Assembly (NCBI RefSeq): GCF_003952385.1
Contig: NZ_CP034444.1
Span: 1,736,001-1,800,000 of the forward strand
DNA from: Mesorhizobium sp. M1D.F.Ca.ET.043.01.1.1
GTDB taxonomy: Bacteria > Pseudomonadota > Alphaproteobacteria > Rhizobiales > Rhizobiaceae
DNA: 64,000 nucleotides
Direction: 5' to 3'
Shown here in pieces: positions 39,719 through 56,137 of this stretch. Below the pieces are notes generated by a model that searched no databases, was not told where the DNA came from, and was given only the letters and a program-made list of their open reading frames with translations. Each line of letters begins with the position of its first letter. The first letter of the stretch is position 1. Position numbers and translations under genes: made by a program.

Positions 39719-40399
39719 CTAGGTCCGATCCGGCTTGGCGGAGCCGCCGACCGAACCGCCAGACAGCCGGTCCCACCTCGGAATGAATCCCGGAACCTGT
39801 GCCATGTATTTGCGATAGGCGTCGCCGAACTCGGCGATCGCTTCGCGCTCCTCGGCCCGCGCCAGCCTGACGTACATGACGACCAGCACCGGGAACATCG
39901 CAAGCGTCAGCAGCGTCGGCCACTGAAACAGGAAGCCGAGCATCACCAGGATGAAGCCGACATATTGCGGGTGGCGCACGTAGCTGTACGGTCCGCCGGT
40001 CGCGAGGGAGCGGTTCTGCTGCGCGTCGTAGAGAACCCGCCACGCGGCCGCGATCAGCCAGAACCCGCCGCCGATGAGGACGAAGCTCAGCAGGTGGAAC
40101 GGTCCGAAATGCGGATTGACCCGCCAGCCGAACATCATTTCCAAGAGGTGCCCGGCGTCGTGCGAGAACCAGTCGATATCCGGATAGCGCGACTGCAGCC
40201 AGCCCGACAGCAAGTAGATGGTGAGCGGAAAGCCGTACATCTCCGCGAACAGCGCGACCAGGAAGGCGCTGAACGCGCCGAACGAGCGCCAGTCACGGGT
40301 CGTCGTCGGCTTGAAGAAGCTGTAGGCGAACAGGATGAAGACGGCGGAATTGACGATGACCAGGCTCCAGAGGCCATAGGCTTGCGTGTCGGCGCTCAT
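39719..40399 (-). CDS. Isoprenylcysteine methyltransferase-like membrane protein
   Basis: A 226-residue protein with about five helices. The ICMT/PEMT motif GPYSYVRHPQYVGFILVMLG is followed by EREAIAEFGDAYRKYMAQVP, both typical of the family. Its ATG overlaps the DUF2933 stop (ATGA). Such proteins are frequent in copper and heavy-metal clusters, but their substrate there is not established; methylation of a lipid or a small molecule is possible. Confidence 0.85.
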   Translation of the reverse strand: MSADTQAYGLWSLVIVNSAVFILFAYSFFKPTTTRDWRSFGAFSAFLVALFAEMYGFPLTIYLLSGWLQSRYPDIDWFSHDAGHLLEMMFGWRVNPHFGPFHLLSFVLIGGGFWLIAAAWRVLYDAQQNRSLATGGPYSYVRHPQYVGFILVMLGFLFQWPTLLTLAMFPVLVVMYVRLARAEEREAIAEFGDAYRKYMAQVPGFIPRWDRLSGGSVGGSAKPDRT

Positions 40400-40653
40400 G
40401 ACGGGTTCCTTTCGTCGGGCTGGTTGCGGTGACCGCCGTGTCCGCCATGGCCATGTCCTCCATGCATGAAGAAGTGCATGAAGAGGCAACCGAATGGCAG
40501 CAGATAGAACAACGCGCCAAGGACATGGGCGCGGTGTTCTGTGAAGAGCAGGAACCCGCCGATCGCAAGGAAGCCGAGCAGGACCAGTCCTGCTCGTGAC
40601 GTCAGAAAAGAACCTTGCGGGTGGTCGTGGTCTGGGTGGTCATGTGTCGACAT
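40396..40653 (-). CDS. DUF2933 small His-rich membrane protein
   Basis: An 85-residue protein: MSTHDHPDHDHPQGSFLTSR, one or two helices (AGLVLLGFLAIGGFLLF, VLGALFYLLPFGCLFMHFFM) and a His/Gly tail HGGHGHGGHGGH. DUF2933 proteins usually accompany copper or mercury resistance genes. The His clusters at both ends suggest metal binding. Confidence 0.85.
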   Translation of the reverse strand: MSTHDHPDHDHPQGSFLTSRAGLVLLGFLAIGGFLLFTEHRAHVLGALFYLLPFGCLFMHFFMHGGHGHGGHGGHRNQPDERNPS

Positions 40654-40663
40654 TGCGGGTCTC

Positions 40664-41041
40664 CTATTCGACGACAAGGCGACCGCGGAACATGCCCATG
40701 GGACATGAGAATCCGAACTCGCCTGGTTGCTTGGGCATCAGCTCGACGGCGACGGTTTCACCCGTCGGCAGGTCGGCGCTCTTCTGGAAATCGGGAAAGA
40801 TCACCTTGTCCGAGCAGGAGGCGGTCTCCTCTCGGCGGAAGTTCAGGCGCACCGGGCGGCCGGCGCGGACGACGATCGTGTCGGGCGTGTAGCCGCCCTT
40901 CACGAGGATCATCGCCTCCTGGTAGCCGCCGCTCGTTTCCGCGGCATGGATGCCCTTCGAACGCTTGAGCCAGAAGAACCAGATGATGAACGCGACCAGG
41001 CCCATTCCGGCGAAGGTCACTATCCAGCGGTCGGGTGTCAT
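40664..41041 (-). CDS. Membrane-anchored cupredoxin-domain protein
   Basis: A 125-residue protein with an N-terminal anchor ([20 protein letters not shown]) and an EfeO-type cupredoxin fold: [20 protein letters not shown], the ligand region [15 protein letters not shown] and the C-terminal [19 protein letters not shown]. Copper binding in the periplasm is expected. The ATG overlaps the copA stop by four bases, so the two are made together. Confidence 0.88.
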
Positions 41042-43569
41042 GTGCCTGTCCTCCTCGGCTGAAAGAAGCGCAAACGGTTGGCGTTGGTGACGACGGTCAC
41101 CGAACTGAAGGCCATGGCGGCGGCGGCGATCAGGGGAGAGAGCAGAAGCCCGATGAACGGGTAGAGCACGCCCGTCGCGACCGGGATGCCAAGCGCGTTG
41201 TAGCCAAACGCGCCGACGAGGTTCTGCCGGACGTTGCGCATCGTCGCCCGGCTGATCTCGATCGCCGTGACCACGCCCATCAGGCTGCCCCTGATAAGCG
41301 TCACGTCGCTCGCCTCGATGGCGACGTCGGTTCCGGTGCCTATGGCGAAGCCAACGTCGGCCTGGGCGAGCGCCGGCGCGTCGTTGACGCCGTCGCCGAC
41401 CATGCCGACCGACTTGCCTTCGAGCTGCAGCTTTTGCACCTCGTGCGCCTTGTCGTCCGGAAGAACCTCCGCCAGCGCGCGGTCGATGCCGACTTCGCGT
41501 GCGATCGCGCGACCGGTACGCTCGTTGTCGCCGGTCAGCATCACGACCTCGATGCCCAGTCCTTTCAGGATTTCGATCGCCGCCCTGGAGTCCGGCTTCA
41601 CGGTGTCGGCGACCGCGATCAGCCCGGCCGCTTGCCCATCGACCGCAACGTACATCGGGGTCTTTCCTTCATTGGCGAGACGCTCCCATTGCGGCAACAG
41701 CACGTCTGCGGGAACACCACGGTCGCGCATGAGCTTGGCGTTGCCGAACAGCACGTCATGGCCGTCGATGCGACCACTGACGCCGTGGCCCGGGACGGCA
41801 GCGAAACCTTCAGCGTCGACCAGCTCGATCTTCCGCGCCCCGGCACCCTTCACGATGGCCGAGGCCAGCGGATGCTCGGAGCCCCGTTCCAGGGAAGCGG
41901 TGAGCCGCAGGACGACGGTCTCTTCGTGGCCTGGCGTGACGACGACGTCGGTAAGCGCCGGTTCACCCCTGGTGATCGTGCCCGTCTTGTCGAGGATGAT
42001 CGCATCGAGTTTCTCGGCCGCCTGCAATGCGTCGCCGGAGCGGATCAGGATGCCGTTTTCCGCTCCCTTGCCGATGCCGACCGTGAGCGAGGTCGGCGTT
42101 GCGAGGCCAAGCGCGCAGGGACAGGCGATGATGAGCGTGGTGACCAGGATGACCGTGGCATAGATCAGCCGCGGCTCAGGCCCGAAATCATACCAGGCCA
42201 CGGCCGCCAGGATTGCGACGATCATGACCGAGGGCACGAAATAGCCCGACACGGTATCGACGACGCGCTGGATCGGCGCCTTTGACCCCTGCGCGTCCTT
42301 CACCATGCGGATGATGCTTGCGAGTGCCGTGTCCTTGCCGACCTTCGTCGCGGTGAAGCGGAAGCTGCCGGTTTTGTTGAGCGTGCCGCCGATGACCTCG
42401 TCACCGGTCTGCTTCTCGACCGGCATGGATTCGCCCGTGATCATCGACTCGTCGACCGCGCTCGATCCGGCACTCACCTTGCCATCGACCGGGATCTTTT
42501 CGCCCGGACGGACAATGACCGTGTCGCTGACCAGCACTTCCTCCACGGGGAGGTCGATTTCCTTACCGTCGCGCACGACCCTCGCCGTCTTCGCCTGCAG
42601 CCCGATCAGCTTCTTGATCGCCTGCGACGTCCGGCCCTTGGCCTTGATCTCCAAGGCAAGACCCAACACGACGAGGGCAACGACGACGTCGGTCACGTCC
42701 CAGAAGACTTCGGCCAGCGCCATGTCGGGAAAGATCCCGGGCCATGCGACCGCCACGACCGAATAGAGGAACGCCGCCGTGATCCCGATCGAAATCAGGG
42801 TGTGCATGTTGGCCGCGCGGTGCTTCAGCGCGTCCCACATGCCGACGAAGAACTGCGATCCGGACCACAGCAGGACGGGCAGGCTCAGCACGCCGAGCAA
42901 TGCCCAAACGACCCGGCGCGTGCCACTGCCCATGGGCATCCACTCGCGCAGTCCCGGAATGAGATCGGGATAGCTGAACGCCATCACCGGGAGGGAGATG
43001 ACGGCGGCGAGCCAGAATCTCCGCATCAGGCTGCGGTAATCCTGCTCGTTCGCCGCCTCGGCAGGGTCCAGCGTCTCGTCCGTGGGTTTCACCTTCGGCT
43101 CGGCGACCCGGTAGCCGGAGGATTCGATCGAGGTCCGCAGCCGTTGGAAATCGGTCCGTTCCGGCTGATACTCGATGTCGACGGCGTTGGGCGCCATACT
43201 GGCGCGGGCGGCGACCACGCCCGGGGTCATCTTCAGCGCCAGCTCCACGCGCGTAGCGCATGAGGCGCAATGCATGTTCTTGATGGGAATGCGCATCGTC
43301 GCCGTACCGGCGGCGTAACCGACTGAGCGGATGGCACGCAGGATTTCCGGGACCTTCGCCTGGGCCGGATCATAGTCGACCTTCGCCGTCTGCGTGGCGA
43401 GATTGACCGAGGTGGCCTGCACCCCTTTGACCGCGCGAACGGCCTTCTCGATCGCTGGCGGGCAGTGGGCGCAAGTCATTCCGCCAATGCGGAGAGTGAG
43501 CGACTCGGGGCCCCCGCCCAGGCCACCAGGAGGGTAGTCAGGGATTGCGGCTTCTGTCCGCATGTTCAT
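41038..43569 (-). CDS. copA: Copper-translocating P-type ATPase
   Basis: An 843-residue P1B-1 ATPase. Two N-terminal heavy-metal domains carry GMTCAHC (C33, C36) and NMHCASC. The transmembrane CPC motif [15 protein letters not shown] is at about residue 482, the phosphorylation site [13 protein letters not shown] at about 525, HP in [15 protein letters not shown] and [20 protein letters not shown] at about 723. It pumps Cu+ out of the cytoplasm or supplies oxidase copper, as FixI/CtpA members do. GAGGAG lies seven bases before the ATG at 43569. A FixK-type box upstream of the run (44183) hints at low-oxygen control. Confidence 0.95.
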
Positions 43570-43671
43570 GGGCTTTCTCCTCGAAATTCGTTCGCGACCG
43601 GAGCCAGCGTTGGCCCAGCGCAAAGAGCGGTCCCGGTCGACAAGCGTGAGATTTGCTCGTCGAGCAGGTCG

Positions 43672-44124
43672 TCAGAGAACGGAACGAGGAGGCCGAAAGG
43701 CTTCGTCAGGCTTTGTCAGCGCGAAGCCAGATTGGTCGAGGAACGCCGGAGCGTAAGGCTCCGGTGCAATGCTGATATCCGATCCCGCCGCAAGAACTGC
43801 AGCCGAACAAGCGAAACAATGCCCACCCGCGCAGAGGCCGCAATTGGCGTGGGCTGCGCCGTGATGACAGCCTGAATCGTCCCCCGCAGATGCCGAAAGG
43901 ACGGTCGCTGCCCACGTCGCCGGATCGGTTTGGCAGCCGGCAATTGATGGAACGACCCTGGCAGACAAAACACCTTGCGAGGCGCCGAACTCGTGCGCCC
44001 GCGCGTGGCCCGAAGGCATCAGCGACAGGAAAAGAGCAAGCCCGAACGCAAGAAGGATCGCACCGAAGGAACCACTTGCGGTCCGATGGTTTCGCTGCCA
44101 GATCTGACAAGATCGTCCAAGCAC
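43672..44124 (-). CDS. Exported Cys/His-rich protein of the copper cluster
   Basis: A 150-residue protein from a GTG. Signal segment GAILLAFGLALFLSLMPSG ends HARA. The mature part carries DDSGCHHGAAHANCGLCAGG and HCFACSAAV, a dense set of possible copper ligands, then a proline-rich tail. I recognise no exact family. It precedes copA by 102 bases and lies 59 bases after the FNR/FixK-type box, so it probably opens the operon. A periplasmic copper-binding role is inferred. Confidence 0.7.
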   Translation of the reverse strand: MLGRSCQIWQRNHRTASGSFGAILLAFGLALFLSLMPSGHARAHEFGASQGVLSARVVPSIAGCQTDPATWAATVLSASAGDDSGCHHGAAHANCGLCAGGHCFACSAAVLAAGSDISIAPEPYAPAFLDQSGFALTKPDEAFRPPRSVL

Positions 44125-44182
44125 AGCAGGGCTTCCAAGCTCTTTACATTCCGCATGTTCGCTTGCTCAGCCCAAATGCGCT

Positions 44183-44196
44183 TTGACGTACGTCAA
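44183..44196. promoter_or_regulatory. FNR/FixK-type box upstream of the copper operon
   Basis: TTGACGTACGTCAA is a perfect 14-bp palindrome matching TTGA(C/T)-N4-(G/A)TCAA. Its centre is about 65 bases from the GTG at 44124, which leaves room for the usual 41.5-base offset to a start site and a short leader. The nearest plus-strand genes are too far away to be the target. Confidence 0.6.
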
Positions 44197-44287
44197 TTCG
44201 ATCGACCCCAGTTGAAGGAGCCGCAAGCAAGCCCGCGCAAGGCAAGCACTCCTTGGAAGTGTTCAGGTTGAATTTGCGTGGGAGCGC

Positions 44288-44500
44288 TTAGGCCCGGCGC
44301 CGCTTGGACATGGCACGCAACAGGTCGGCTTCCTCTGTGACCCCGTCGTCGAAAACGTGGATGACTTCCGCCGCCAGTTGGTTCCGCTGTTCCCTGTCCT
44401 TTTTGGCTAGACGGCGCTCATCGCACAACCGGTCAAATACCCGCTGGAGCAAGTCCAGCTCGGCTGGTCCGTAGATACCGCCGTAGCGTGACAATGGCAT
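44288..44500 (-). CDS. Small helical protein (YGPADLDLLQRVF family)
   Basis: A 70-residue protein: MPLSRYGGIYGPAELDLLQR, VFDRLCDERRLAKKDREQRN, VIHVFDDGVTEEADLLRAMS. Paralogues lie at 61968-62189 (intact) and 24733-24939 (broken). Repeated presence in one window implies a mobile or amplified rhizobial family of unknown role. The start at 44500 matches the paralogue. Confidence 0.7.
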   Translation of the reverse strand: MPLSRYGGIYGPAELDLLQRVFDRLCDERRLAKKDREQRNQLAAEVIHVFDDGVTEEADLLRAMSKRRRA

Positions 44501-44690
44501 TGCCGCCGCCCTCAAGCGCCGCATTTGAATTATCTCACGTTGCGGGCCATAGGCGAAGGAAAAACCCCGTGGCGCTGGCGAACAATCCGGCCGTCGAGCG
44601 CTTATCCAGACGAGTGGTCGATTCCTCAGGGATGTAGCGCTCGAGTGGCAACCGCTCCCAATAGGCGGCGGGCTTTTCAGCGTCATGAAG

Positions 44691-45030
44691 CTAATGTTCT
44701 GTGAGCGCGTGTCCCGAAGCCTGCCAGGCGATCATCCCGCCCGATAGATGACTCACATGCAGATAACCGAGTTTCGACAGCTGGTCTGCGGCGATCTCGC
44801 TCATGCGGCCACTGCGGCAGTACAGCACGATCTTCGCATTCTTGTCCGCTGGGAGCTTGTCAAGATTCCGATCGATCTTGTCGTAGGGGATAAAGGCATC
44901 CGTTCCCTCGATCTGGCCCTATGGAATATGGACGTTTGCAAAGAAGAAGTCCTTGCGCGGCAGCATCTGACTTAACTGCTCGCTCGTGATGGTTTGAAAC
45001 CCTGGACTACTTTGCTCTGCCGCGGCTGCC
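44691..45030 (-). pseudogene. Rhodanese-domain gene with in-frame stop
   Basis: The minus strand reads GFQTITSEQLSQMLPRKDFF, FANVHIP, a TAG, then [40 protein letters not shown] and [19 protein letters not shown]. The active-site loop CRSGRM with its catalytic Cys is intact. The TAG falls where relatives have PYEG, consistent with a small in-frame deletion. No start codon was found upstream. Rhodaneses transfer sulfane sulfur. Confidence 0.7.
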
Positions 45031-45226
45031 GCTGGGTACCTGAAACCGACAGTCCCATCCAAGATCGAAGGCCCAAGCACGATTGACCAAGGCTATGAAG
45101 CGGCTGGTTTGGACCGGTAGCGGAACGTCGGCTTCTGGGAACTCCGGGCTAAAAGCTGACTTGACGTGGTCGGCCTGGTCGAAACCAATTTCCAAGTCTG
45201 GCGATCGATGAAGTCGCATTGCTAGC

Positions 45227-46147
45227 TCAGGAGGCGCTGGGCTTTGTCCCGACTTGGGCAGCCGTCATGTTTCTTGCAATCCCGGCAAGCCGCAAGACGG
45301 CGCGATTTGGGTTGGATTCGAGCCAAACGCCGCAGATGGGAATGACGCTGCTTTGCCCTTCAACGGGTTTCCATGTCGCAGAATCGACGCCGACGTTTCT
45401 GGCATAGCTTTCCACCGCCAAAGCCACACCTTGCCCAAGCTGCACCTTGAAATTGATTGTCGCCTGATTTGCGCGACATATCTCGATGGTAGGGCCGCCC
45501 TTTTGCCCGATATTTTCGAGCAACAGCACGTCCAAAGGCGATCCCTCCAGTCCGATAGGTACAAGCAAGCGGTCGCCTGCAAGGTCGGGCCACGCGACAG
45601 CCTTTCTTCCCGCCAGTGGATGACCGGATGGCAGCAGAACAAAGAGCCGTTCGCGCCACAAGATCTCGCTTTTGCAGGACACGGCCGGACAAGGCCCGTG
45701 GGAAAAGCCGATGTCGAGGCGACGCTGGCGCACTGCAGCCAAGCACTGCCCCGCGGGAACATCCTCCAAGGTAAAGCGAACTCTGGGATGTAGGGCGCTG
45801 AACCGAGCGAGCAGTTGCCTCAGGAATTCGCCTCCCCTCACGGCGCATAATCCAATGCGGAGCGTCTTTGCATCCTCGTTGCGAGCACATTCAGTGACCG
45901 CGTCGAGTAAACGCTCATAGTGATCCCGCACCGCCTCGACCCAAGCCCGGCCCGCCTCGGTCAGACGAACGCCACGGACGTCGCGGTCGAACAATTGCAT
46001 CTCCAGAAGTTGTTCGAGCTTGACGACGTTGCGACTTAAGCTGGACTCCCTTATTCGCAGTTCCCTTGCCGCCTGCCGCAGGCTGGCGTGATCCGCCGCT
46101 GCCAAGGCGTAGGACAGCAACCGCAGGGCGTTGCCGTTTCGCGTCAT
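45227..46147 (-). CDS. LysR-family transcriptional regulator
   Basis: A 306-residue protein. The N-terminal winged helix has LRQAARELRIRESSLSRNVV, KLEQLLEMQLFDRDVRGVRL and TEAGRAWVEAVRDHYERLLD. The C-terminal effector domain is of the periplasmic-binding type (LRIGLCAVRGGEFLRQLLAR and later HPLAGRKAVAWPDLAGDRLL). The effector is unknown. It lies 112 bases beyond the stop of the methyltransferase on the same strand, so it could belong to that cassette. Confidence 0.9.
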   Translation of the reverse strand: MTRNGNALRLLSYALAAADHASLRQAARELRIRESSLSRNVVKLEQLLEMQLFDRDVRGVRLTEAGRAWVEAVRDHYERLLDAVTECARNEDAKTLRIGLCAVRGGEFLRQLLARFSALHPRVRFTLEDVPAGQCLAAVRQRRLDIGFSHGPCPAVSCKSEILWRERLFVLLPSGHPLAGRKAVAWPDLAGDRLLVPIGLEGSPLDVLLLENIGQKGGPTIEICRANQATINFKVQLGQGVALAVESYARNVGVDSATWKPVEGQSSVIPICGVWLESNPNRAVLRLAGIARNMTAAQVGTKPSAS

Positions 46148-46259
46148 GAGCTGGCTTTGCGTGTATTAAGGGTCATGTCTGCATACGCGAGACGGGATCG
46201 AATTTCTTGCAAGGTTTCGGCCGCGGTCCGACACTCAATTGGACGACCGGGCCCACACA

Positions 46260-47240
46260 TCATTTTTTCTGGCTAGAGCCGACGTATCGCTCAGTCTCAT
46301 AAACATACTCATGAGGAATGGCGGGGTCCTCCATTTGCGAAAGGTAGAGATTGAGATTTTCCCTGCTGTTGCTCGCAGCGAGACTGCAGAAATTTCCGCT
46401 ATTCCACGTCATGACGCAGTGTTTGAAATGCGCACCTACCGCATGAAACATCTCTTCCAGCGTCACCTCGTTGTTGAACATCGTCGTCAGGACGGCGGTC
46501 TTCTTCTTCTCGATTTCGTCCGGGGGGAAGTACCGCGCCTTGAAGCCAAAATCCTTCTGGTACTCACGGCGTATGTAGTCGTCGTTGTCACGGGCTCGAA
46601 ATTTCTCGACGAAAACGAAAATACCACCCTGCTTCAGGTGTTGTGCCACAAACTCGACCTGTTGCACCCTGTTGGGCGAATACATCTGGAAGGTGGTATC
46701 CTCGAGAATCACGTCGAATCCTGAAGCGAATTTTGCGAACCGGGTGTCGGAACCGAGCACGTCCTTGGTCAATCGATGGAACGGCCCGATGAAGAACTCG
46801 GCGTCGGGCGGCTCGCCATATGCCATGAAGCATTTGTAGTTTTCCGCATTCGGGCTGCATGAGAGGCTGCGGATCTGTCCGCCAGACAGCTCGGACAGCG
46901 TTCTGGCCATCGTGCCCTCCGCTGTCCCAAGGCTATACAGCGATAGCGGGGTGCCGAATTGTCGTGCGTATTTCATCACGGCATAAGCCATCCGGCATTC
47001 CTCCTCCAAACGATAGGGAATGCTGCCGTGATAGTGCCGGTCGAAAAACCCTTGCCGCACGGCATGCAGTCCGACCAGATCACGAAGCAGATCATCGCTC
47101 GGAAGAAGTCGGGCATCGACCACAGGTCTTCGGACCGGCATGCCGCTCTCCCCGGCTGCCGTTGCCGCGAAGAAGTCGGTGAGTTGGTTAATTCGCGGGC
47201 CCCGGTCGCATTCGGCCAGAAAGTCGTCGAGTCCCCGCAT
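46260..47240 (-). CDS. Class I SAM-dependent methyltransferase-like protein
   Basis: A 326-residue soluble protein. A Rossmann-like core begins with SLYSLGTAEGTMARTLSELS (SAM motif I). It continues with RFAKFASGFDVILEDTTFQM and FVAQHLKQGGIFVFVEKFRA, the usual post-I and 'loaded bed' strands. The C-terminal part (ARYFPPDEIEKKKTAVLTTM, FHAVGAHFKHCVMTWNSGNF) may shape a substrate pocket. The N-terminal 90 residues are helical and do not match a common methyltransferase cap that I know. It is transcribed divergently from the AraC regulator across 195 bases. A role in making a small molecule is inferred from the exporter two genes away. Confidence 0.75.
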   Translation of the reverse strand: MRGLDDFLAECDRGPRINQLTDFFAATAAGESGMPVRRPVVDARLLPSDDLLRDLVGLHAVRQGFFDRHYHGSIPYRLEEECRMAYAVMKYARQFGTPLSLYSLGTAEGTMARTLSELSGGQIRSLSCSPNAENYKCFMAYGEPPDAEFFIGPFHRLTKDVLGSDTRFAKFASGFDVILEDTTFQMYSPNRVQQVEFVAQHLKQGGIFVFVEKFRARDNDDYIRREYQKDFGFKARYFPPDEIEKKKTAVLTTMFNNEVTLEEMFHAVGAHFKHCVMTWNSGNFCSLAASNSRENLNLYLSQMEDPAIPHEYVYETERYVGSSQKK

Positions 47241-47435
47241 CGCTGTGTGCCTCCCACAACCGTTGATCGGTGAGACGCCTAAGGCTCGGCAGAGAAACGA
47301 AGATTAGTTCCACTTAATATTGTCTTCCGCCGAGTATAAGCGGAGGCGACGGATAGACCGTGGCGGTACAGACAGCTTTCACGTGATTGCCGTTTTTTCG
47401 ATCCAGCCACATCATCTACCAACCTAGAATTAATT

Positions 47436-48398
47436 GTGAATTGTCCGGCAACCCTAGGTTCGACACAAACCGATGGAGAAGGTATCTCTAAAGGAGACCA
47501 TTTTCGCTTGGCAGAGACTTTTTGCGTCAATCCTGAAATGATCCGCCCTTCAAGGCACCAGACCCTTACGCATCAGAGCGGGACCTGGGGTAATATTAGA
47601 GTCGACTTGATAAGAAGGACTGGCCTTGAGCGTCAGGAAACGAGGATCGCTCAGACTAGACATACGTTTCTGATGAACCTGAAGGGAGCGGCGCGGCGCG
47701 GAGAAGACTTCATCGATGGGCGCCGGATCCCCTTCTCGGTGCGACGGCCCGGCTCAATCATCTATATCCCTGCCGATAGCGAGTGGGTCGGTTGGGACGA
47801 GGGCGATGCTAGCGCGTCATATCTTCTGGTTTCGATCGCGCAGGAATTCGCGGAGCAGGCTTTTGGGGCATCAACCTTCCACCACCCGGCGGGGCTGCCG
47901 CCCTGGATCGGAATTCGTGACGGGACCATGGAGATGGCGCTGCAGAAGATAGCGGCCGAACTCAGATATCCTGACCCGATCAGCATAACGATGGTGGAGA
48001 GCCAGGTCACCCAATTGTTCGTGCAGATGATCAGGTCGAAGCGAACCTGCGTCCAGCCGGCAAAAGGCGGTCTCTCGGCTTTTGATCTCAGGCGCGTGGT
48101 GGCAATGATCGAGTCATTGTCGGAGGACAGACCCACGCTGGCAAGAATGGCAAAAGAGCTTGGCATCAGCCGGTTCCATTTCAGCAGGGCCTTCAAGCAG
48201 TCGACAGGCATGACCCCGCATGCATTCATCGCAAAGCGCCGGCTGGAGCAGTCCGCGGACTTGTTGAGATCCACAAAATTGTCGGCGACACAAATTGCGC
48301 TGGAATGCGGCTTCGCGAGCTCAAGCCACTTTACGATCGCCTTCAAGCGGGCCTTCGGCACGAACCCGATCGAATTTCGACGCAAGTCAAGGATATAG
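47436..48398 (+). CDS. AraC-family transcriptional regulator
   Basis: The C-terminal 100 residues hold two helix-turn-helices: PTLARMAKELGISRFHFSRA, FKQSTGMTPHAFIAKRRLEQ and LSATQIALECGFASSSHFTI, AFKRAFGTNPIEFRR. The N-terminal part resembles the cupin-like sensing domain of AraC proteins. GTG 47436 is the furthest start. TTG 47508 after AAAGGAG, or ATG 47538, are alternatives. A 22-residue frame (MEKVSLKETIFAWQRLFASI) lies in another frame over the start region. It probably controls the divergent methyltransferase and the genes behind it. Confidence 0.88.
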   Translation: MNCPATLGSTQTDGEGISKGDHFRLAETFCVNPEMIRPSRHQTLTHQSGTWGNIRVDLIRRTGLERQETRIAQTRHTFLMNLKGAARRGEDFIDGRRIPFSVRRPGSIIYIPADSEWVGWDEGDASASYLLVSIAQEFAEQAFGASTFHHPAGLPPWIGIRDGTMEMALQKIAAELRYPDPISITMVESQVTQLFVQMIRSKRTCVQPAKGGLSAFDLRRVVAMIESLSEDRPTLARMAKELGISRFHFSRAFKQSTGMTPHAFIAKRRLEQSADLLRSTKLSATQIALECGFASSSHFTIAFKRAFGTNPIEFRRKSRI

Positions 48399-48492
48399 AC
48401 TGACTGCTCAGTTCATTTGAGCAAGGATTTGAAAAATCCGCGTCGACGGCAAAGCACCAACTTCGCGGGAGACTGTATGACGAGCGCGCCGC

Positions 48493-49710
48493 TTGTTGGA
48501 TGTGCCGTCCTTGTCAGATACAGTTCGAATTCATTTCCACAGAAAGCCTAAACTTTGGTCCTTCGTGTTCGTTGGGTTCTTGGCCAGCACGTTGTCGGCA
48601 TCTGTCGGACGAAACGGGTACTACATTGCCTGCGCCTGGATTCTTGTCGACGCCGGGCACGGAAGTGCGGGCGTGGCGACGATGCTTGCGGTCGTCAGTA
48701 TTGTCGAGCTTGTTTCGAGCCCTGTGGCCGGCCTGGCGTCGGATCGGCTCGACCGAAGGTGGTTGAACATAGCGGCAGACCTCGGGCGCTTCGCTCTCAT
48801 GTTCGCAACAGCTTGCGCAATGTTCCATCTGGACGCGTTCGTGACGATCTGCCTCTCGGCCGCGGTCTTCGCTTTCTGCGATCGGGTGGCGCTTACCGCC
48901 TCGCAATCGATGATACCGATCGTGGTGCGCGGCAGTGACCTCGCGACCTCAAATTCGACTGTCTTCTTCGCGATGCAATCCGGCTGTCTTGGGGCAGCTC
49001 TGCTTGCCAGTTCCTTGCTTGCCAGGCATTCCCCTCCCCTGACGTTCGCAGTCCTCGCCGTGTTCTTCTTCACCTCGGCTGCCAGCCTGTCGTTAACCCG
49101 GCTGAACTCTGGACCGGAGGGCCCCAGCGGAGCCAGGAGTCTTGCAGTCAATATCGACCGGCGTCTGGTCGGCCTCTTTGCCGTGTACGCGCTCCTTTAT
49201 GCGAGTGCGGTGCTGGTCAGCGTGATGGGATCGAGCTTTGTCTTCGAGGAACAGCGAGGAACGGCTGCGGATTTCGGTTATCTCGAGGCGGCATGGTCGG
49301 CAGGCTCACTGATTGGCGCGATCGTTCTGGCCGGGGTGACACGAGTAACAAGCGCTCATACACTGCGTCTTGTGCTTTTAGGCTCAACTGCGTTCGCGCT
49401 GATGGCGCTGACCGTTGCGCGCTCACCGTGGACACTGATGATCTTCGCCGTTCTCGGCTTCCTTTACAATCTGGGCCGCGTGAGCGTCGAGGTCACATTG
49501 CAGTCGCGTGCGTCCGATAACGTTCTGGGCAGGGCGAAAGGTGCCATGCACAGCCTTGCTGTCGGGCTCGGATTGGTCATTTTCGGCGTCGCGGCGGCCT
49601 TGGGAGACAATATATTGCCGTCGACGATTTTCTTCGGCTTCGGTGTGCTGCTCATCATCGGCGTGTCCGCCTTGAGCATCGATATCGTACAACGAAAGAA
49701 CGGAACGTGA
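48493..49710 (+). CDS. MFS-family transporter, probable exporter
   Basis: A 405-residue protein with about twelve helices. Typical loop motif SPVAGLASDRLDRRWLN lies between TM2 and TM3, and GRAKGAMHSLAVGLGLVIF near the end. The start is uncertain (TTG 48493 or GTG 48502). The next gene begins one base after the stop, so the two are coupled. The layout (regulator, exporter, unknown protein, methyltransferase) suggests export of a product made locally. Confidence 0.85.
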   Translation: MLDVPSLSDTVRIHFHRKPKLWSFVFVGFLASTLSASVGRNGYYIACAWILVDAGHGSAGVATMLAVVSIVELVSSPVAGLASDRLDRRWLNIAADLGRFALMFATACAMFHLDAFVTICLSAAVFAFCDRVALTASQSMIPIVVRGSDLATSNSTVFFAMQSGCLGAALLASSLLARHSPPLTFAVLAVFFFTSAASLSLTRLNSGPEGPSGARSLAVNIDRRLVGLFAVYALLYASAVLVSVMGSSFVFEEQRGTAADFGYLEAAWSAGSLIGAIVLAGVTRVTSAHTLRLVLLGSTAFALMALTVARSPWTLMIFAVLGFLYNLGRVSVEVTLQSRASDNVLGRAKGAMHSLAVGLGLVIFGVAAALGDNILPSTIFFGFGVLLIIGVSALSIDIVQRKNGT

Positions 49711-49711
49711 G

Positions 49712-51112
49712 GTGGACGAGCTAGCTCCAAGCGGAGACGCGAAACAGGAAATCCTCGGATCACTGGCGATGCTTTACCCGTGGATGCGATCCTATTACTC
49801 ACGGCCGATCCGCGACTATGCGTTTCGCCTTTTCGAGCCGCCGTCATCGAAAGATCCGCCGGAAGTTCGCGGGCACGCCATGATCAAGCTCCTCGACACG
49901 ATCAGGAAGGCAGGTAAACGAAACGGACTCCGGGACAACGCGATCGCGCAGGCCTGCCAGGAACTTGAACAGCGGCGCGTATTGCAGACCGGACCTCATC
50001 TGCTTCTTCTCCTGGACCCGGAAGCTTACTACACGCATATTTTCAGCCTCCTTGGCCTCTCGGCGCATGGGTGCTCGACCTATGTCTCATATGCCGTCTC
50101 GACCGTCAGTCTTGCTGAAAGGGCGCGCAAGGGCCCAGGCTGGCTCACCATCGACGGGGAGCCGATCAACGTGTTCGGTCTCAGCCGAAGCCGCATGATC
50201 GGATACAGCCTTCTCACCGGGCCAGGATCCTATCGATTCGAGCTTGTGTCCGCAGAGCCAAGCCCTCAGGAAGATGGGCTTGCTACGCTTCGCGGCCTTC
50301 TGCCAAGCGGCGAATTCGAACGGCCGGCACATGCCATAAAGGCAGCCAATCTTAGCATTTGGCCGCACCTGTTCGGAAGCCGCTTTGCCTTTCTGCAGAT
50401 TGACGACGAGGATATCGCCGACCTGGTGGCGGATCATCTGTCGGACAACGATTCATGGTTACGCACAAGGTTGCTGGAAGATCCAAAGCTCGCGTCGAAC
50501 ATTCTTGCCGAGATCGACAAGCTTGCGGACGGACCTTGGAGCGGGTGGCTTACGCGCAGTACCGACTTCTTCTGGTTCTATGAAAACGGCAGGCGCCTGC
50601 CGCTGCGCCTCGAGGCAGGTGAACTCATCAACCAGTCGACCGGAACGAAGGTGGGTCGCCTCGCGGCCCCTGATATCATTGAGCGGCTGGCGAATCGCAC
50701 ACTTGTTCCCAACCTACTCTTGATGTTTTTAGTTCTGTCGATCCTGCCCGGTGTGCGCACACTCGGAGGGAGCCATCAGCCGGTCTATTTTCCTCTGATG
50801 CGTTACGTTGTCCATCGAGCGCTCGAAGCCGCGAGCATTGATGCGGATCTTCGACGCGCGCTGGCCAGCGACGATGTGCCCGGAGCTTGGGGACATCGAG
50901 TGATACAGGGCGATGACGATCCTTTCGAGCTGTTGCGCGATGGCGGAACCGGCGAAACCGGCGATCTCATAAAGCGCTTCGGCGACCTCCCTCTCTCGGA
51001 AGCGGGCGGCAGCATGACGAGTTTTGTTTCAGACACGTCTTGGCAAGAGCTTCGCGGACGGCTGCGAGACGAGGCGATCAGCCGGACTGATGCGGAATGG
51101 GCTTTCTCCTGA
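49712..51112 (+). CDS. 466-residue protein of unknown family
   Basis: I do not recognise this protein. It starts at GTG 49712, one base after the MFS stop. The N-terminal half is alpha/beta (LYPWMRSYYSRPIRDYAFRL, LLLLDPEAYYTHIFSLLGLS, GYSLLTGPGSYRFELVSAEP). The centre has FFWFYENGRRLPLRLEAGEL. A hydrophobic stretch VPNLLLMFLVLSILPGVRTL is followed by GGSHQPVYFPLMRYVVHRAL, which could be buried rather than membrane. The GGSHQ motif and conserved-looking aromatic residues hint at an enzyme. Coupling to the exporter suggests biosynthesis or modification of its cargo. Confidence 0.75.
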   Translation: MDELAPSGDAKQEILGSLAMLYPWMRSYYSRPIRDYAFRLFEPPSSKDPPEVRGHAMIKLLDTIRKAGKRNGLRDNAIAQACQELEQRRVLQTGPHLLLLLDPEAYYTHIFSLLGLSAHGCSTYVSYAVSTVSLAERARKGPGWLTIDGEPINVFGLSRSRMIGYSLLTGPGSYRFELVSAEPSPQEDGLATLRGLLPSGEFERPAHAIKAANLSIWPHLFGSRFAFLQIDDEDIADLVADHLSDNDSWLRTRLLEDPKLASNILAEIDKLADGPWSGWLTRSTDFFWFYENGRRLPLRLEAGELINQSTGTKVGRLAAPDIIERLANRTLVPNLLLMFLVLSILPGVRTLGGSHQPVYFPLMRYVVHRALEAASIDADLRRALASDDVPGAWGHRVIQGDDDPFELLRDGGTGETGDLIKRFGDLPLSEAGGSMTSFVSDTSWQELRGRLRDEAISRTDAEWAFS

Positions 51113-51262
51113 GTAGAGATGCGTCAGGCTCCGCAGATGACGTTATTTCGAATGGTGCCAAATCTGTGGCCCCACTCCGCGAAAGGCAGCAAGGCTGGAT
51201 TAAGGGCTTCGCTGCCTCGGCCTGATTGGAACCTGCGGAGATTGGCCCCATTTGCCTCGACA

Positions 51263-51380
51263 ATGGCCAAAACCGATCCGCGGACAGTCGCCAGCCTCCA
51301 AAAGGAACACGCACGTCGCACGTCGCTGCGCGGAGACAATCCCTATCGCACCAAGGCTTACTTGCGCGCGGCCAGCGCCG
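51263..51380 (+). pseudogene. polX: 5' fragment of a polX-type DNA polymerase gene
   Basis: ATG 51263 reads MAKTDPRTVASLQKEHARRT and SLRGDNPYRTKAYLRAAS, the N-terminal helix-hairpin-helix start of rhizobial DNA polymerase/3'-5' exonuclease X. It ends abruptly where IS66-like sequence begins. With ku and the ligase relic it is a third DNA-repair gene trace in the window. Confidence 0.5.
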
Positions 51381-51383
51381 AAC

Positions 51384-51865
51384 GCGAGCGAGGCGCTCCG
51401 GCGCATCGCAGAACTCTATCGCGTCGAGGACGACATCCGCGGCCAGCCGGCAGACGCACGTCTTGCCGTGCGCCAGGAAAGGAGCTGGTCGATCCTGGCC
51501 GAGCTCAAACTGTGGCTGCACGAGAAGCTCGGCCTAATTAGCCAGAAGACCAAGCTCGCCGAGGCAATGCGCTATACGCTCTCCCGATGGGAAGGACTCT
51601 CGCGCTTCCTCGATGAGGGCCGCCTCGAGATCGACTCCAATACCGTCGAGCGGTCGATCCGCCCGATCGCGCTCAACCGCAAGAACGCCCTCTTTGCCGG
51701 CACTGACGGCGGCGCCGAGCATTGGGCCGTCGTCGCTCGCTGATCGAGACCTGCAAACTGAACGACGTCGAGCCACTACCTCGCCGAGGTGCTCACCAGG
51801 ATCGTCAACGGCCACCCAAACAGCCAGATCGGCGATCTTCTGCCCTGGACCTACCAGGGCTTAAG
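51384..51865 (+). mobile_element. IS66-family transposase 3' fragment
   Basis: The frame reads EALRRIAELYRVEDDIRGQP, KTKLAEAMRYTLSRWEGLSR, FLDEGRLEIDSNTVERSIRP and IALNRKNALFAGTDGGAEHW, the C-terminal catalytic region of IS66 TnpC with its last Glu. A frameshift near 51742 separates it from YLAEVLTRIVNGHPNSQIGD and LLPWTYQG. The 5' half of the element, tnpA and tnpB are absent. From 51866 to 52049 I see nothing. Confidence 0.8.
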
Positions 51866-52049
51866 GCCGTCGCCTGAGAACATCGTTACGTTCGAGCAGA
51901 TTCTAAGGCTTTTCGGGGTCGCGTCGGCATCAGCTCGGTACGTTGCATTGATTGTTACAGTCGCCCGACGACCGGCCGCACAGCCGTCGCTGGCGTTGAG
52001 CGGGGCCGGCAATGAGCGGAGGACTCGGGGCTCCTCTAGGAGACGTCCA

Positions 52050-53762
52050 TTATGCCGGCAGCCCTGCTTTCACCAGCCCCTCGCGTAGAAGCTCCCGGTC
52101 TTCGCGCCGTTCCAGCAGGACGACCTGATTCATGAACGTTTGAATCGAATAGTCCGGTTTCGCTTTCAGGATAGCCGCGACCTCCGCCCTGGCTTCCTCG
52201 ACACGGCCGAGCTGCCCATAACAGGCCGCGAGCCGGGAAGACCACCTGCCCTCGCTCGGCATCCGGTTGATCGCCTGCGCTGCCTCCGCAAAGCGCTTCA
52301 GCGAATAAAGCGCTATGGCATGCGTTGCGTGGTACCAATGCGGGTGAAACGGATTGAGACGCATTGCCCTCTCGATCCATTGTAAACCCTCGGCCGGATG
52401 CCCGCGCATCGCGAGCATGTCACCCATCAGGATTATGCCGTCCGCGTCGTTCGGGTTGAGTTCTACGGCCCGCCTTCTGTGATATTCGGCGTCGTCGAGT
52501 TCGCGCGTGTACGCGAGTACGCGTCCCAACATCCGGTGGCAGCCTGCCTCCTGCGGGTCGAGATCGACGCCACGTTGGGCCATGGTCTTCGACGCCTGCT
52601 TGACCTCCGCCGGAGCCGCGCCGTAACCCTGCAGCGCGATGCGGGCAAACGCCAGGTACGAATGTGCCAAGGCATAATCCTGATCGCATTCAAGCGCCTT
52701 CTCGAAGAAGGCACAGGCCTGCTGGTTGTCGCCTTCGGCGAAGCCCCTGAAGTAGACGAGGCCTCGCAAGAAGAAGTCATAGGCCGCGAGGCTCACCGTC
52801 GGCTTGCGCAGCGATTGCCTGAGCTTTGCGTCCTCGATCCGTCCGACAAGCGTCGACACGATGGTGGTCGTCAGCTCGTCCTGAACTTCGAATATCTCGG
52901 TCAGGTTGCGGTCGTAACAGTCCGCCCACACGTGAGCGCCACTCGCCGCCTCGATGAGCTGTGCCGTGATGCGAATGCGGTCGCCTGCCCGCCGGACGCT
53001 TCCCTCGAGAAGGTAGGACACGCCGAGCTGCCTGCCGATTTCGTTCAGGCTGACAGTCTTGCCGCGAAACGAGAATGACGAATTCCGGGCAACGACAAAG
53101 AGGGACCGAAAGCGCGCGAGTCCGGTGATGATATCCTCGGTGATGCCGTCGCTGAAAATGGCATCCTCGGCTTGGCCGCTGAGATTGTCGAACGCCAGGA
53201 CGGCGATCGACGGCCTGTCGGGGAGCGGCAGCGTGGGTCGTTCGGACACTCCCGCCACGGACCACCGCCAGACGCGAATGGGCCGGGCGATGTTCTTCAG
53301 CGGCTGTTCGCCCGCATCCTGCCAAGTCATGTCGACCTTGCCCGCGACATCCTCGTAAACTCGACCCGAGATGGCGATGCCTCCCGGTTCGGCCAGCGAC
53401 TCCAACCGGGCAGCGACGTTGATCCCCTCGCCATAGACCTCGTCGCGATCGGCGACGATTTCGCCCTGGTTGACGCCGACGCGAAACTGGAGCCGTTGCG
53501 ATGCAGGTACCTCGGCGTTGCGGTCCGCGATGAGCTGCTGGACAGCTGCAGCGCAGCGGACCGCTTCGACCACACTTGCAAACTCGACCAGCACGCTGTC
53601 GCCCGCAGTGTTGATGACGCGTCCGCCGTGCTCGCCGATGACCGGGAAGATCGCCGCCTGCAGCTCCTGCAGGGCCCGAACCGTCCGCTCCTCGTCCTCG
53701 CCCATCAACCGGCTGTAACCGGCGATATCGGCGGCAAGAATGGCAGCCAGACGTCTCTCCAT
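52050..53762 (-). CDS. Class III adenylate cyclase with TPR region
   Basis: A 570-residue protein. Residues 1 to about 170 form a class III cyclase domain: RRLAAILAADIAGYSRLMGE with metal-binding D12, GRVINTAGDSVLVEF with the second Asp, and VYGEGINVAARLESLAEPGG. A TolB-N/FlgO-like segment follows (RPSIAVLAFDNLSGQAEDAI, ITAQLIEAASGAHVWADCYD). The last 250 residues are TPR repeats (AHSYLAFARI, GCHRMLGRVLAYTRELDDAE, GIILMGDMLAMRGHPAEGLQ). This layout is widespread in rhizobia. Catalysis is likely but the signal is unknown. It is a single gene with no evident operon partner. Confidence 0.88.
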   Translation of the reverse strand: MERRLAAILAADIAGYSRLMGEDEERTVRALQELQAAIFPVIGEHGGRVINTAGDSVLVEFASVVEAVRCAAAVQQLIADRNAEVPASQRLQFRVGVNQGEIVADRDEVYGEGINVAARLESLAEPGGIAISGRVYEDVAGKVDMTWQDAGEQPLKNIARPIRVWRWSVAGVSERPTLPLPDRPSIAVLAFDNLSGQAEDAIFSDGITEDIITGLARFRSLFVVARNSSFSFRGKTVSLNEIGRQLGVSYLLEGSVRRAGDRIRITAQLIEAASGAHVWADCYDRNLTEIFEVQDELTTTIVSTLVGRIEDAKLRQSLRKPTVSLAAYDFFLRGLVYFRGFAEGDNQQACAFFEKALECDQDYALAHSYLAFARIALQGYGAAPAEVKQASKTMAQRGVDLDPQEAGCHRMLGRVLAYTRELDDAEYHRRRAVELNPNDADGIILMGDMLAMRGHPAEGLQWIERAMRLNPFHPHWYHATHAIALYSLKRFAEAAQAINRMPSEGRWSSRLAACYGQLGRVEEARAEVAAILKAKPDYSIQTFMNQVVLLERREDRELLREGLVKAGLPA

Positions 53763-53913
53763 CGCTCGGGCTTCCCTTGCCGTTGCTTCGGACGCGAGAC
53801 TAGCTTCCCTTGACGGCCGCGTCAGCCGAATACTGCAATCAGGAGACGTGCTGCCCGGTTGCGGCGCCGCTAGGAAGCGATTTCCATGTGCTCGAACGTG
53901 TAGCTGGCCATAC

Positions 53914-54200
53914 TCAAGGCGCGTCGCGCCGCTTCATGATCTCAGCGCCGGCAAATACGCCAGTGAGCGACTGCGCCGTCGCTGTCAGCTTGCCGCCTGC
54001 GTCCTTGAGCATGGAAGAGCCCTCGTCAAGGCCGTCCAGGCAGACCTTAGGCCGCCTGGCCTGCTCCTGGTCTCTTCAAAGTGGGTGCGAATTCGCTCGC
54101 TGAGTTCGAGTAGCTCTGGATCCGGCTTAACTGGCCGGAGAGCATCGTTTCTGCTTTCCTTACCCATTGGATGAGCCATTCGCGCGATTCAGACATTGCC
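53914..54200 (-). pseudogene. Broken small hypothetical gene
   Basis: One frame gives KPDPELLELSERIRTHFEET and RSRPGGLRSA. A shift near 54030 leads to LDEGSSMLKDAGGKLTATAQ and SLTGVFAGAEIMKRRDAP to a TGA at 53914. The joined product would be a short helical protein of unknown function. The surrounding 53763-54422 shows no other gene. Confidence 0.4.
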
Positions 54201-54422
54201 TGCCTGCGTCAATTTGTAATCGCCCCGAACCGCGCATAACGCGGATTGTTCCTTGAAGGCGATTATGCGCCTCATTGATGTGAGACAGGAATCCTTCTGG
54301 AGGCGCTAGCTCCAAAAGACAGGGTGCAGCGCGGGTCCCGGAATGAGAGTTCCAGGGAAAGCCTGTCCATCGTTCTGTTAGCGTATGCTTGACGAAGCCA
54401 TTGGCCGCGCCAGAGTCATGGC

Positions 54423-54716
54423 ATGGCCAGGGGTATCAATATCGGCGATGAGGTTGCCCTCACTGCGACCGTGCGGCGACGGGTAAATGCGGATCGCGTC
54501 AGCGTGTCAATCCCGTCCTATGGCTTTCCGCACTCCCTCGTCGACCGAACGTCAAAGGTGAAGAAGGGTCAGCAGATGGAACTAGTCGGTGATGTGACGC
54601 ATATCCAAGGCGAGTGGGTGACCGTGAACCTGGGCGTGCCCGTGACGGTGAACATGGACACCCTCAGGCTCGTAACGGCTTATAAATCGCCGACGAGAAA
54701 GACGTCGGGTCCGTAG
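54423..54716 (+). CDS. Conserved small hypothetical protein
   Basis: A 97-residue beta-rich protein: MARGINIGDEVALTATVRRR, VSVSIPSYGFPHSLVDRTSK, GDVTHIQGEWVTVNLGVPVT. A single-base-deleted paralogue is at 23263-23597, which confirms that the frame was selected. The domain resembles an OB or SH3-like barrel by alternation, but I do not recognise a named family. Confidence 0.7.
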   Translation: MARGINIGDEVALTATVRRRVNADRVSVSIPSYGFPHSLVDRTSKVKKGQQMELVGDVTHIQGEWVTVNLGVPVTVNMDTLRLVTAYKSPTRKTSGP

Positions 54717-54777
54717 ATGGTTGCGCAAGGTGGATGATTGATCGCCGAGCTGAGGAAAGGCTGTCGCCTCAACCCTC

Positions 54778-54909
54778 GGTACTGCATTGCTCGATTTCTT
54801 CGCCTCGCGCATCCGCGATGGCCTCTATCGCATGGACTGGGGCCAGTTCGACATTTCCGATCTGGCGCACCCGCGGCTGCTCTGCCGGATGAAAAGCTTC
54901 CCGCTTTGA
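54778..54909 (+). pseudogene. Relic of a PRC-like gene C-terminus
   Basis: The frame reads GTALLDFFASRIRDGLYRMD and WGQFDISDLAHPRLLCRMKS. This corresponds to the FYRIPWDKIDISNPTQPRLL region of the Nramp-operon protein at 6630-7001. No start or N-terminal half is present. Confidence 0.5.
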
Positions 54910-54985
54910 GAGCGCAGCCCAACAGTAAATAGCCACTTACACTTCCCGCTTTGAGAGCGCAGCCGAAAGGTAAATAGCCACTTAC
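54897..54985. repeat. Tandem 44-bp direct repeat
   Basis: Copies at 54897-54940 and 54942-54985 share cttcccgctttgagagcgc and taaatagccacttac, differing only in six central bases. The first copy contains the stop of the PRC-like relic. The pair lies just upstream of the promoter at 55005. Confidence 0.8.
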
Positions 54986-55004
54986 AAAAAAGCTATCGTC
55001 CAAG

Positions 55005-55029
55005 GGAACATCGCAGCCGGCGCGAAGTT
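55005..55029 (+). promoter_or_regulatory. EcfG-like promoter (GGAAC-N16-AGTT)
   Basis: GGAAC at 55005-55009, 16 bases, AGTT at 55026-55029, 27 bases before the 24-residue peptide gene that heads the envelope-stress operon. Confidence 0.5.
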
Positions 55030-55055
55030 GGTACAGGCAAGGAGGAGCCTGTGCC

Positions 55056-55130
55056 ATGAACAATGTCATCTATCTCATCGGTCTCATCGTCGTCGTGCTC
55101 GCGGTGCTCTCGTTCCTCGGCTTTCACTAG
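55056..55130 (+). CDS. 24-residue single-helix membrane peptide
   Basis: The peptide starts MNNVIYLIGLIVVVLAVL and ends SFLGFH, with GGAGGAG eight bases upstream of the ATG. It is homologous and equal in length to the peptide at 28277-28351. The next gene begins nine bases after its stop, so it opens a four-gene operon. Confidence 0.7.
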   Translation: MNNVIYLIGLIVVVLAVLSFLGFH

Positions 55131-55139
55131 GAGGATGAC

Positions 55140-55748
55140 ATGCAGCGCGAGAATGATCAGGGCCGCAGGCCCGCCGACTTCGCCAAGACGAAGAACGAAG
55201 TTTCCGACCGACTCCAGAGAGAAACCCAAAGCGCCACCGAGGCGTTCCAGGACGCAGGTGATGAGATTGCCCGAAGGGCAGTCGACTACGCGTCGGAAGC
55301 ACAGGAGGCCCTATCCGAAAGGGCCGAGGAAACGCAGCGCGATATCGGATCGAGCCTGGCGGCGCTCGGCGGCGCCTTGCGCGCCGCAAGCGATCATCTG
55401 GCCAATAAGGAGCAAAGCGCGGCCTCGAAATTCATGCTGGATGCCGCCGGCGGACTGGAAAGCCTTTCGTCCTCATTGAGACAAAAACCGTTGGGGCAGG
55501 TGCTGGAGGACGTTCAGTCCTTCGGCCGCCAGAATCCCGGCGTGCTGATTGCCGGCTCGGTGCTGGCCGGCCTGGCGCTCGGACGGTTCATGAAGGCTTC
55601 CCCGCCCATGGGGTATGGATCGGTTGAGGCCGCGGCCGGGCCGGCCGGACAAACCGGTGTGAGAACAAGCGAGTCCCAGGACAACGCGGCGCCCAATTGG
55701 GGTGCCGACGGCGGCGTACCCGGACAGGCAGCGGAGTTGGAAAGATGA
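55140..55748 (+). CDS. Helical membrane-associated stress protein (DUF883/ElaB-like)
   Basis: A 202-residue protein. The first 110 residues are amphipathic helices (ADFAKTKNEVSDRLQRETQS, AVDYASEAQEALSERAEETQ, AALGGALRAASDHLANKEQS). A short hydrophobic segment follows (NPGVLIAGSVLAGLALGRFM), then a polar tail. This resembles ElaB/YqjD-type proteins in layout only. Its stop overlaps the next start (ATGA). A membrane-surface role during stress is inferred. Confidence 0.75.
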   Translation: MQRENDQGRRPADFAKTKNEVSDRLQRETQSATEAFQDAGDEIARRAVDYASEAQEALSERAEETQRDIGSSLAALGGALRAASDHLANKEQSAASKFMLDAAGGLESLSSSLRQKPLGQVLEDVQSFGRQNPGVLIAGSVLAGLALGRFMKASPPMGYGSVEAAAGPAGQTGVRTSESQDNAAPNWGADGGVPGQAAELER

Positions 55749-56137
55749 ACACTCAGGACAATCCAAGTCTCGGCACGCTGGTCAGCGATCTAGCTCAGCA
55801 GGTGAGCACGCTTATTCAGACGGAAACCAGGCTGCTGCGGGCGGAGATATCGGAGAGCGTGACCAAGGCTGAAGCCGGTGCAGTCCAGGTGCTGGGCGGC
55901 GCGATATGCCTGCTCGCCGCCCTGATGGTTCTGTTGCAGGCACTGGTCATTGCCCTGGCGCGTCTGGGGCTGGGCGCCGGATGGTCGGCTTTGCTCGTCG
56001 GGGTGGTTGTGGCCGTGCTGGGCGTCGTCCTGTTACGGACCGGCATGGCAAGCATGGCGCCTTCGGAACTGGCGCCGGACCGAACGCAGGAGCAGTTGAA
56101 GCGCGACGCGAACGTGATCAAGGGACAAGCGAGATGA
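55745..56137 (+). CDS. Phage holin family protein (DUF1469 type)
   Basis: A 130-residue protein: LGTLVSDLAQQVSTLIQTET, RLLRAEISESVTKAEAGAVQ, then two helices (GGAICLLAALMVLLQALVIA and GWSALLVGVVVAVLGVVLLR). This is the usual arrangement of the YqjE/holin-superfamily III proteins, which are not phage genes in this setting. Its stop overlaps the DUF3618 start. Confidence 0.85.
   Translation: MNTQDNPSLGTLVSDLAQQVSTLIQTETRLLRAEISESVTKAEAGAVQVLGGAICLLAALMVLLQALVIALARLGLGAGWSALLVGVVVAVLGVVLLRTGMASMAPSELAPDRTQEQLKRDANVIKGQAR

Follow-up and report, generated by a model that had tools for sequence, protein, structure and literature searches.

A 64,000-nucleotide stretch of the Mesorhizobium sp. M1D.F.Ca.ET.043.01.1.1 genome (hereafter the window; C1:1736001-1800000 of a 7.13 Mb one-contig genome) carries a real and co-conserved gene cassette composed of a class I S-adenosylmethionine (SAM)-dependent enzyme (MT), an AraC-family regulator, an MFS transporter and a 466-residue protein, U466. 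The unit is probably biosynthetic, and we lean towards regarding it as a regulated biosynthesis-and-export unit in which U466 would act as the ligase, MT as a tailoring enzyme, the MFS protein as the exporter and AraC as the controlling regulator. The cassette probably makes and exports a small molecule, because related MT–U466 pairs adjoin genes for cell-density sensors. The evidence computed here consists of gene order, co-conservation, co-phylogeny, fold similarity and an association with LuxR genes and lux-box-like sites. The five open reading frames (ORFs) described in an earlier note on this DNA were all recovered, as follows:

45227-46147, minus strand: LysR-family gene (Pfam LysR_substrate, 5.8e-26)
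46260-47240, minus strand: MT, class I SAM-dependent enzyme, nearest to CmoA, core partner of U466 (from the ORF list)
47241-47435: divergent MT/AraC intergenic region of 195 bp, presumed regulatory (from the ORF limits)
47436-48398, plus strand: AraC-family regulator of the cassette (Pfam HTH_18, 3.4e-26)
48493-49710, plus strand: MFS transporter, presumed exporter (Pfam MFS_1, 9.6e-16)
49712-51112, plus strand: U466, putative ATP-dependent ligase with a BshC / class I aminoacyl-tRNA synthetase-like fold

The LysR, AraC and MFS identities given in that note agree with the Pfam matches, and the close MFS–U466 coupling was found as described, the MFS stop codon being separated by a single base from the start codon of U466, a GTG. 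The start codon of the MFS gene is uncertain (TTG at 48493), and its product scores below the curated NCBIfam cut-offs (TIGR00900, 1.1e-22; EntS, 5.7e-9).

A scan of genome contigs with U466 yielded 54 loci, together with one distant match (L055). Of the 54, 53 come from records with Rhizobiales names and one from a record called only ‘Bacterium’. MT, AraC, MFS and U466 are all present in 48 of the 54 loci, so the four genes, whose co-conservation the earlier note had left to a survey, do travel together; 46 of these 48 keep the gene order of the window. Such an arrangement is more than chance. Before removal of duplicates, same-strand AraC and MFS genes stand beside U466 in 56 of 97 loci. Deviations are few: MT was not found in the stretch of L049, it lies on the other side and at least 6.7 kb away in L050 and L054, and L005 has a partial AraC match 3.6 kb from MFS. 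In L049, an IS21-type insert carries genes between MFS and U466; two ORF families of this insert occur in two loci each, and the MFS–U466 spacing is equal in L050. Locus L018 (Ensifer sp. IC3342, 5993-9401) contains a KamA-family radical SAM gene, an MFS remnant and U466, with an IS66 transposase nearby; MT and AraC were not found in this locus. The KamA-family gene, a single case near an IS66 element, was not used as a part of the cassette.

The LysR gene is indeed located just beyond MT, as noted earlier, but it is probably not a member of the core unit: at a threshold of at least 120 bits, 24 of the 26 loci L001-L026 have it and none of the 28 loci L027-L054 does. It is a lineage-specific neighbour, and outside L001-L026 its membership in the unit was rejected. 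The hidden Markov models (HMMs) used for neighbouring genes were built from few seeds, partly drawn from the same loci.

MT and U466 form the core pair. In 119 Mesorhizobium genomes counted by hand, MT occurs with an A- or B-type U466 (the types are defined below) in 33, MT alone in one (G080, a fragment), U466 alone in two (partial in G011, split in G039) and neither in 83. The pairwise distances of the two proteins are strongly correlated (r 0.90 for 72 pairs, in which every MT sequence scores above 300 bits and is longer than 250 residues, the others having been dropped), a value reached by none of 2000 permutations (maximum 0.14). The correlation persists within clade B alone (r 0.93, 23 pairs), where U466 identity falls to 37%. 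The description of the methyltransferase as an ‘orphan’ is thus not retained; it is the AraC–MFS arrangement that is confined to one clade.

Classification of 97 loci, 86 of which were used for the tree after removal of 11 duplicates (identical last 350 residues), revealed three layouts. In clade A, AraC–MFS–U466 is found in 45 loci, 44 of which have MT no more than 10 kb away and 43 of which have it in divergent orientation; six further loci are incomplete. Clade B comprises 24 loci in which, by the class criterion, MT lies directly upstream of U466 on the same strand. Clade C contains U464, a more distant paralogue of U466, beside a GNAT gene in 10 loci (upstream on the same strand in nine, convergent in L142); no partner gene was found in L147, near a contig end. 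The FastTree phylogeny recovers each of the three clades as monophyletic: A together with its incomplete loci (51 tips, support 1.0), B (24 tips, 0.945) and C including L147 (11 tips, 1.0). All three types occur in the genome of the window, namely A within the window itself, B at C1:2213169-2214557 and C at C1:1966985-1968358. U464 was counted by hand in 73 of the 119 Mesorhizobium genomes and, where neighbours were read, is paired with GNAT, without MT. This upstream GNAT gene was seen in L062 (9477-10862, G000:C1:1966985-1968358) and in L066-L073, and a hydrophobic ORF of 280-odd residues lies near U464 in eight of these nine loci.

Clade B, whose loci are spread over 14 genera according to genus labels, is tied to LuxR-type regulation both by gene content and by a lux-box-like site. 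With a home-made HMM, 16 of the 24 loci were found to have a LuxR gene upstream in the same orientation (about 2.6 kb from the MT ORF in L111). All five LuxR proteins scanned, from four loci (L108, L109, L114 and two in L116), combine the autoinducer-binding domain PF03472 with PF00196. A GNAT gene lies downstream in 12 of 24 loci, both downstream proteins scanned (L109, L111) matching Pfam GNAT, and a divergent MFS gene of another subfamily in four (fragmented in L115). A LuxI-type synthase is encoded 7.6 kb beyond U466 in L113. In L116 (4722-8189), LuxR and LuxI-type synthase genes stand immediately upstream of LuxR–MT–U466.

A palindrome search found a perfect palindromic 20-mer, ATCTACCGAATTCGGTAGAT, in the LuxR–MT gap of L136. 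With a consensus that is itself one of the sites (that of L136), the B loci (458 kb) contain 14 lux-box-like 20-mers that match at 15 or more of 20 positions, each located between -300 and +150 of the MT start; the other loci (1.31 Mb) contain two, and a reversed control (1.77 Mb) four. Such sites are present in 14 of the 24 B loci, or 12 of 22 without L136 and L137. For the weaker matches at a similar distance in L114, L115 and L140 (12-13/20), between 17 and 100 of 300 shuffles do as well. Few B loci stand out by palindromy alone in the LuxR–MT gap: in L112, L131, L135, L136 and L137, the 18- or 20-mer is equalled in at most five of 200 shuffles. Upstream of LuxR in the B loci, none stands out by palindromy.

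Relatives of the cassette were found in 34 of 394 genomes (16 of 109 genera) in a family-level search, in seven of 249 in an order-level search and in 11 of 299 in a phylum-level search, the last two sets belonging entirely to the family of the window, Rhizobiaceae. Absences are not strict because few candidates were scored per genome (at most 13 in the survey of 119 Mesorhizobium genomes, four to eight in the window-genome, order, family and phylum searches). At least 271 clustered U466 relatives were found. Plasmid records number 145 (Rhizobium 65, Sinorhizobium 43, Agrobacterium 18, Shinella 8, Ensifer 7, and four other names with one each), and the plasmids carrying relatives are typed mostly as conjugative. 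The cassette is present on R. etli p42d, where it adjoins conjugation genes, and on S. meliloti psymA. In R. etli CFN42 its genes carry the locus tags RHE_RS30265-30280. In the viral contigs scanned for BshC and U466 relatives, none was confirmed, and no description of the cassette was found in the literature covered, that is, open-licence papers.

The patchy distribution, and the presence of relatives on these mostly conjugative plasmids, would also suit a detoxification or resistance function, in which MT, U466 and GNAT modify a xenobiotic and an AraC-induced MFS protein expels it. The MFS protein does resemble the multidrug-type models TIGR00900 and Tap, below their cut-offs, and the GNATs match resistance acetyltransferase models, among many others. 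Such a function is nevertheless unlikely: the core of clade B is MT–U466, with an MFS of the subfamilies sought in only four of 24 loci, the association with LuxR and lux-box-like sites suits production better, and a BshC-fold ligase would be unusual in this role.

The earlier note could not place U466 in any family and saw in it a likely novel enzyme. No match at E<=1 was indeed obtained in Pfam or NCBIfam, and U466 represents an uncharacterised, probably enzymatic family. The predicted model has the overall fold of BshC (structure 4wbd) in a Foldseek search, with class I lysyl-tRNA synthetase (LysRS) as the second match, the alignment to LysRS 1irx lying within chain residues 3-316 of 507. 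On this model, U466 is placed at fold level among the BshC / class I aminoacyl-tRNA-synthetase-like ligases, as a recognisable but highly diverged ligase fold. It differs from BshC (4wbd; PF10079 plus PF24850) in showing only 9% identity, in being shorter, in a model without the long coiled coil and in its gene neighbours. The BshC C-terminal coiled-coil domain PF24850 gave no match in U466 or in 25 family members, and all modelled helices beyond residue 374 have 11 residues or fewer. The PF10079 cut-off was passed in none of 21 genomes (the window's own and relatives), the B. subtilis control being positive. A profile built from 25 diverse relatives matches BshC colinearly and above all 30 column-shuffled decoys, with U466 QTGPHL aligned to BshC GGQQAGL; around DHD the alignment is poor (the invariant GQQ and DHD residues of BshC were taken from the columns of alignment A5). 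By sequence, membership of U466 in the BshC family was rejected, given the absence of PF10079 and the weak profile matches. Searches of PDB sequences with U466 profiles gave no match.

The distant relative L055, from the candidate phylum Nomurabacteria, is related to U466 with an hhalign probability of 95% (E 3.5e-8); its comparison with BshC gave nothing. The U466 relative in L055 (7839-10488) overlaps a MurC/Mpl-like ligase gene, which hints at a wider ligase superfamily.

Mycothiol is made by MshC ligation followed by the acetyltransferase MshD. The fold match of U466 to MshC is far weaker than that to BshC, and the clade C GNAT reaches 30.3 bits with the MshD model, against a cut-off of 163.1. 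The fold shared with the cysteine ligase BshC raises the question of a low-molecular-weight thiol beside glutathione, for which U466 would couple cysteine with an amine, the capping falling to MT or GNAT. The pairing with a capping enzyme recalls mycothiol, as well as N-methyl-bacillithiol as described in PMC6282198. We consider this quite improbable, the transporter coupling and the narrow, patchy distribution being unlike those of a redox buffer.

MT has the fold of CmoA, its first Foldseek match and its best sequence relative among NCBIfam models and PDB sequences. It reached no Pfam or NCBIfam cut-off, and its sole NCBIfam match, to CmoA, scores 15.9 bits against a cut-off of 285, which does not make it a CmoA equivalog; it is also longer (326 versus 229-261 residues). 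CmoA is the carboxy-SAM (Cx-SAM) synthase, in which Arg199 serves the carboxylate of Cx-SAM. When aligned by hmmsearch, the arginine following DFK falls in an insertion next to K234/R236 of MT. Sequence matches of MT to STING (E 0.05 and worse) were taken as chance because the fold search returned methyltransferases. Membership in the group of the O-methyltransferases CysG and BelI was ruled out: these carry a metal-binding His-His-Asp motif, according to PMC11408123, and the MT of the window has, by eye, no HH dipeptide for such a site. Two structures named as near to NmbA in PMC12719100, 3D2L and CypM, do not appear in the list of 50 entries for MT, which excludes nothing. An RNA-modification pair, in which a CmoA-like MT supplies a SAM derivative and a class I LysRS-like U466 acts on tRNA, would fit the first Foldseek match of MT (CmoA, of the tRNA cmo5U34 pathway) and the second of U466 but is very unlikely, as the C-terminal part of LysRS is unmatched and both transporter coupling and autoinducer-type control would be odd.

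For the regulated biosynthesis-and-export unit that we favour, we infer catalysis, substrates, product, export direction and regulation as follows. U466 would activate a carboxylate, probably of an amino acid, with ATP and join it to an amine to form an amide. MT would tailor the substrate or product, the MFS protein would export the product, and AraC would switch on MFS–U466 and probably MT; these last two roles are read from gene order alone. In clade B, the same enzyme pair would be under LuxR-type (autoinducer) control, often with GNAT. Tailoring or capping would fall to an adjacent group-transfer enzyme: MT in clades A and B, GNAT in clade C and in half of the B loci. By analogy, the logic is probably that of bacillithiol-type ligation and capping, and also that of mycothiol. 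In the N-methyl-bacillithiol pathway, as described in PMC6282198 and PMC12719100, BshC is followed by NmbA; the likeness lies in the combination of a BshC-fold ligase and a class I SAM enzyme, the difference in the transporter and AraC or LuxR genes of the rhizobial loci.

Several results weigh against this proposal. On the genomic side, MFS is absent in the four A-type loci L019-L022, and in clade B it was found in only four of 24 loci, two MFS subfamilies having been sought and other exporters not. LuxR was not found in eight of 24 B loci; no 20-mer site was found in L063-L065 and L134, the first three also having no detected LuxR or GNAT. The site is weak in L110 (13/20, reached by 25 of 300 shuffles), L130 and L132 reach 14/20, and in the window and six A loci tested the match never exceeds 14/20. 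As to the proteins, PF10079 gave no match to U466 at E<=1 nor to any of 25 family members at E<=10, the profile match of the 25 relatives to BshC is weak (E 0.031, probability 1.6%), and the 42-row alignment A1 scores lower, 18.5 (31 BshC sequences) and 21.9 (four), within the decoy range (maximum 22.6). The invariant DHD motif of BshC has no clear counterpart in U466, and the likeness of MT to CmoA is weak in sequence.

It is conceivable, though doubtful, that these loci represent an undescribed family of Rhizobiaceae mini-clusters for a new class of exported small molecules under cell-density control. Their core would be the BshC-fold ligase, and the CmoA-like enzyme, instead of being a simple methylating enzyme, may make a SAM derivative or use one. 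If the reading that we favour is right, bacillithiol-type ligases would have been recruited into the making of a regulated, exported metabolite. A family without Pfam or NCBIfam recognition, with members on symbiotic plasmids, is here given a predicted fold and a testable reaction. Genome mining would miss the cassette because neither U466 nor MT reaches a Pfam or NCBIfam cut-off. On the favoured reading, the LuxR genes and lux-box-like site in the sister loci would allow a direct search for the product by induction and metabolomics.

In the MT/AraC intergenic region of the window, a palindrome scan gave nothing clearly above shuffles, and no lux-box-like site was found (best match in 45001-52000, 13/20). 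Rfam on 40000-56000 and ARAGORN on the whole window gave no matches. A second, Pfam-recognisable methyltransferase family occurs near MT–U466 in L063 (6914-7657), L064 (11605-12396) and L065 (11716-12459), the three Mesorhizobium B loci that were read; the Pfam scan covered the copies in L063 and L064. MT is split into two ORFs in the B locus L141 (10374-11579). In Rhizobium A loci (e.g. L057, 16782-22129), U466 is followed 3' by an Xre-type regulator, a CapA/PGA_cap protein, an ABC importer and LysR; of 55 loci, 32 have the Xre ORF family, 29 that of CapA/PGA_cap, 28 each those of the ABC substrate-binding protein and permeases, and 24 that of LysR.

Directly 3' of U466, the window contains a C-terminal fragment of an IS66 transposase (51252-51743, plus strand), which suggests past mobile-element activity at the cassette edge. 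An 861-residue ORF (41038-43623, minus strand) resembles by eye a copper-type P-type ATPase with heavy-metal domains, and a small Cys/His-rich ORF (43672-44124) lies near it. A 570-residue ORF (52050-53762, minus strand) looks by eye like a class III adenylate cyclase with TPR repeats; cyclase–TPR genes also occur near the U464 paralogue in L062 and L066.

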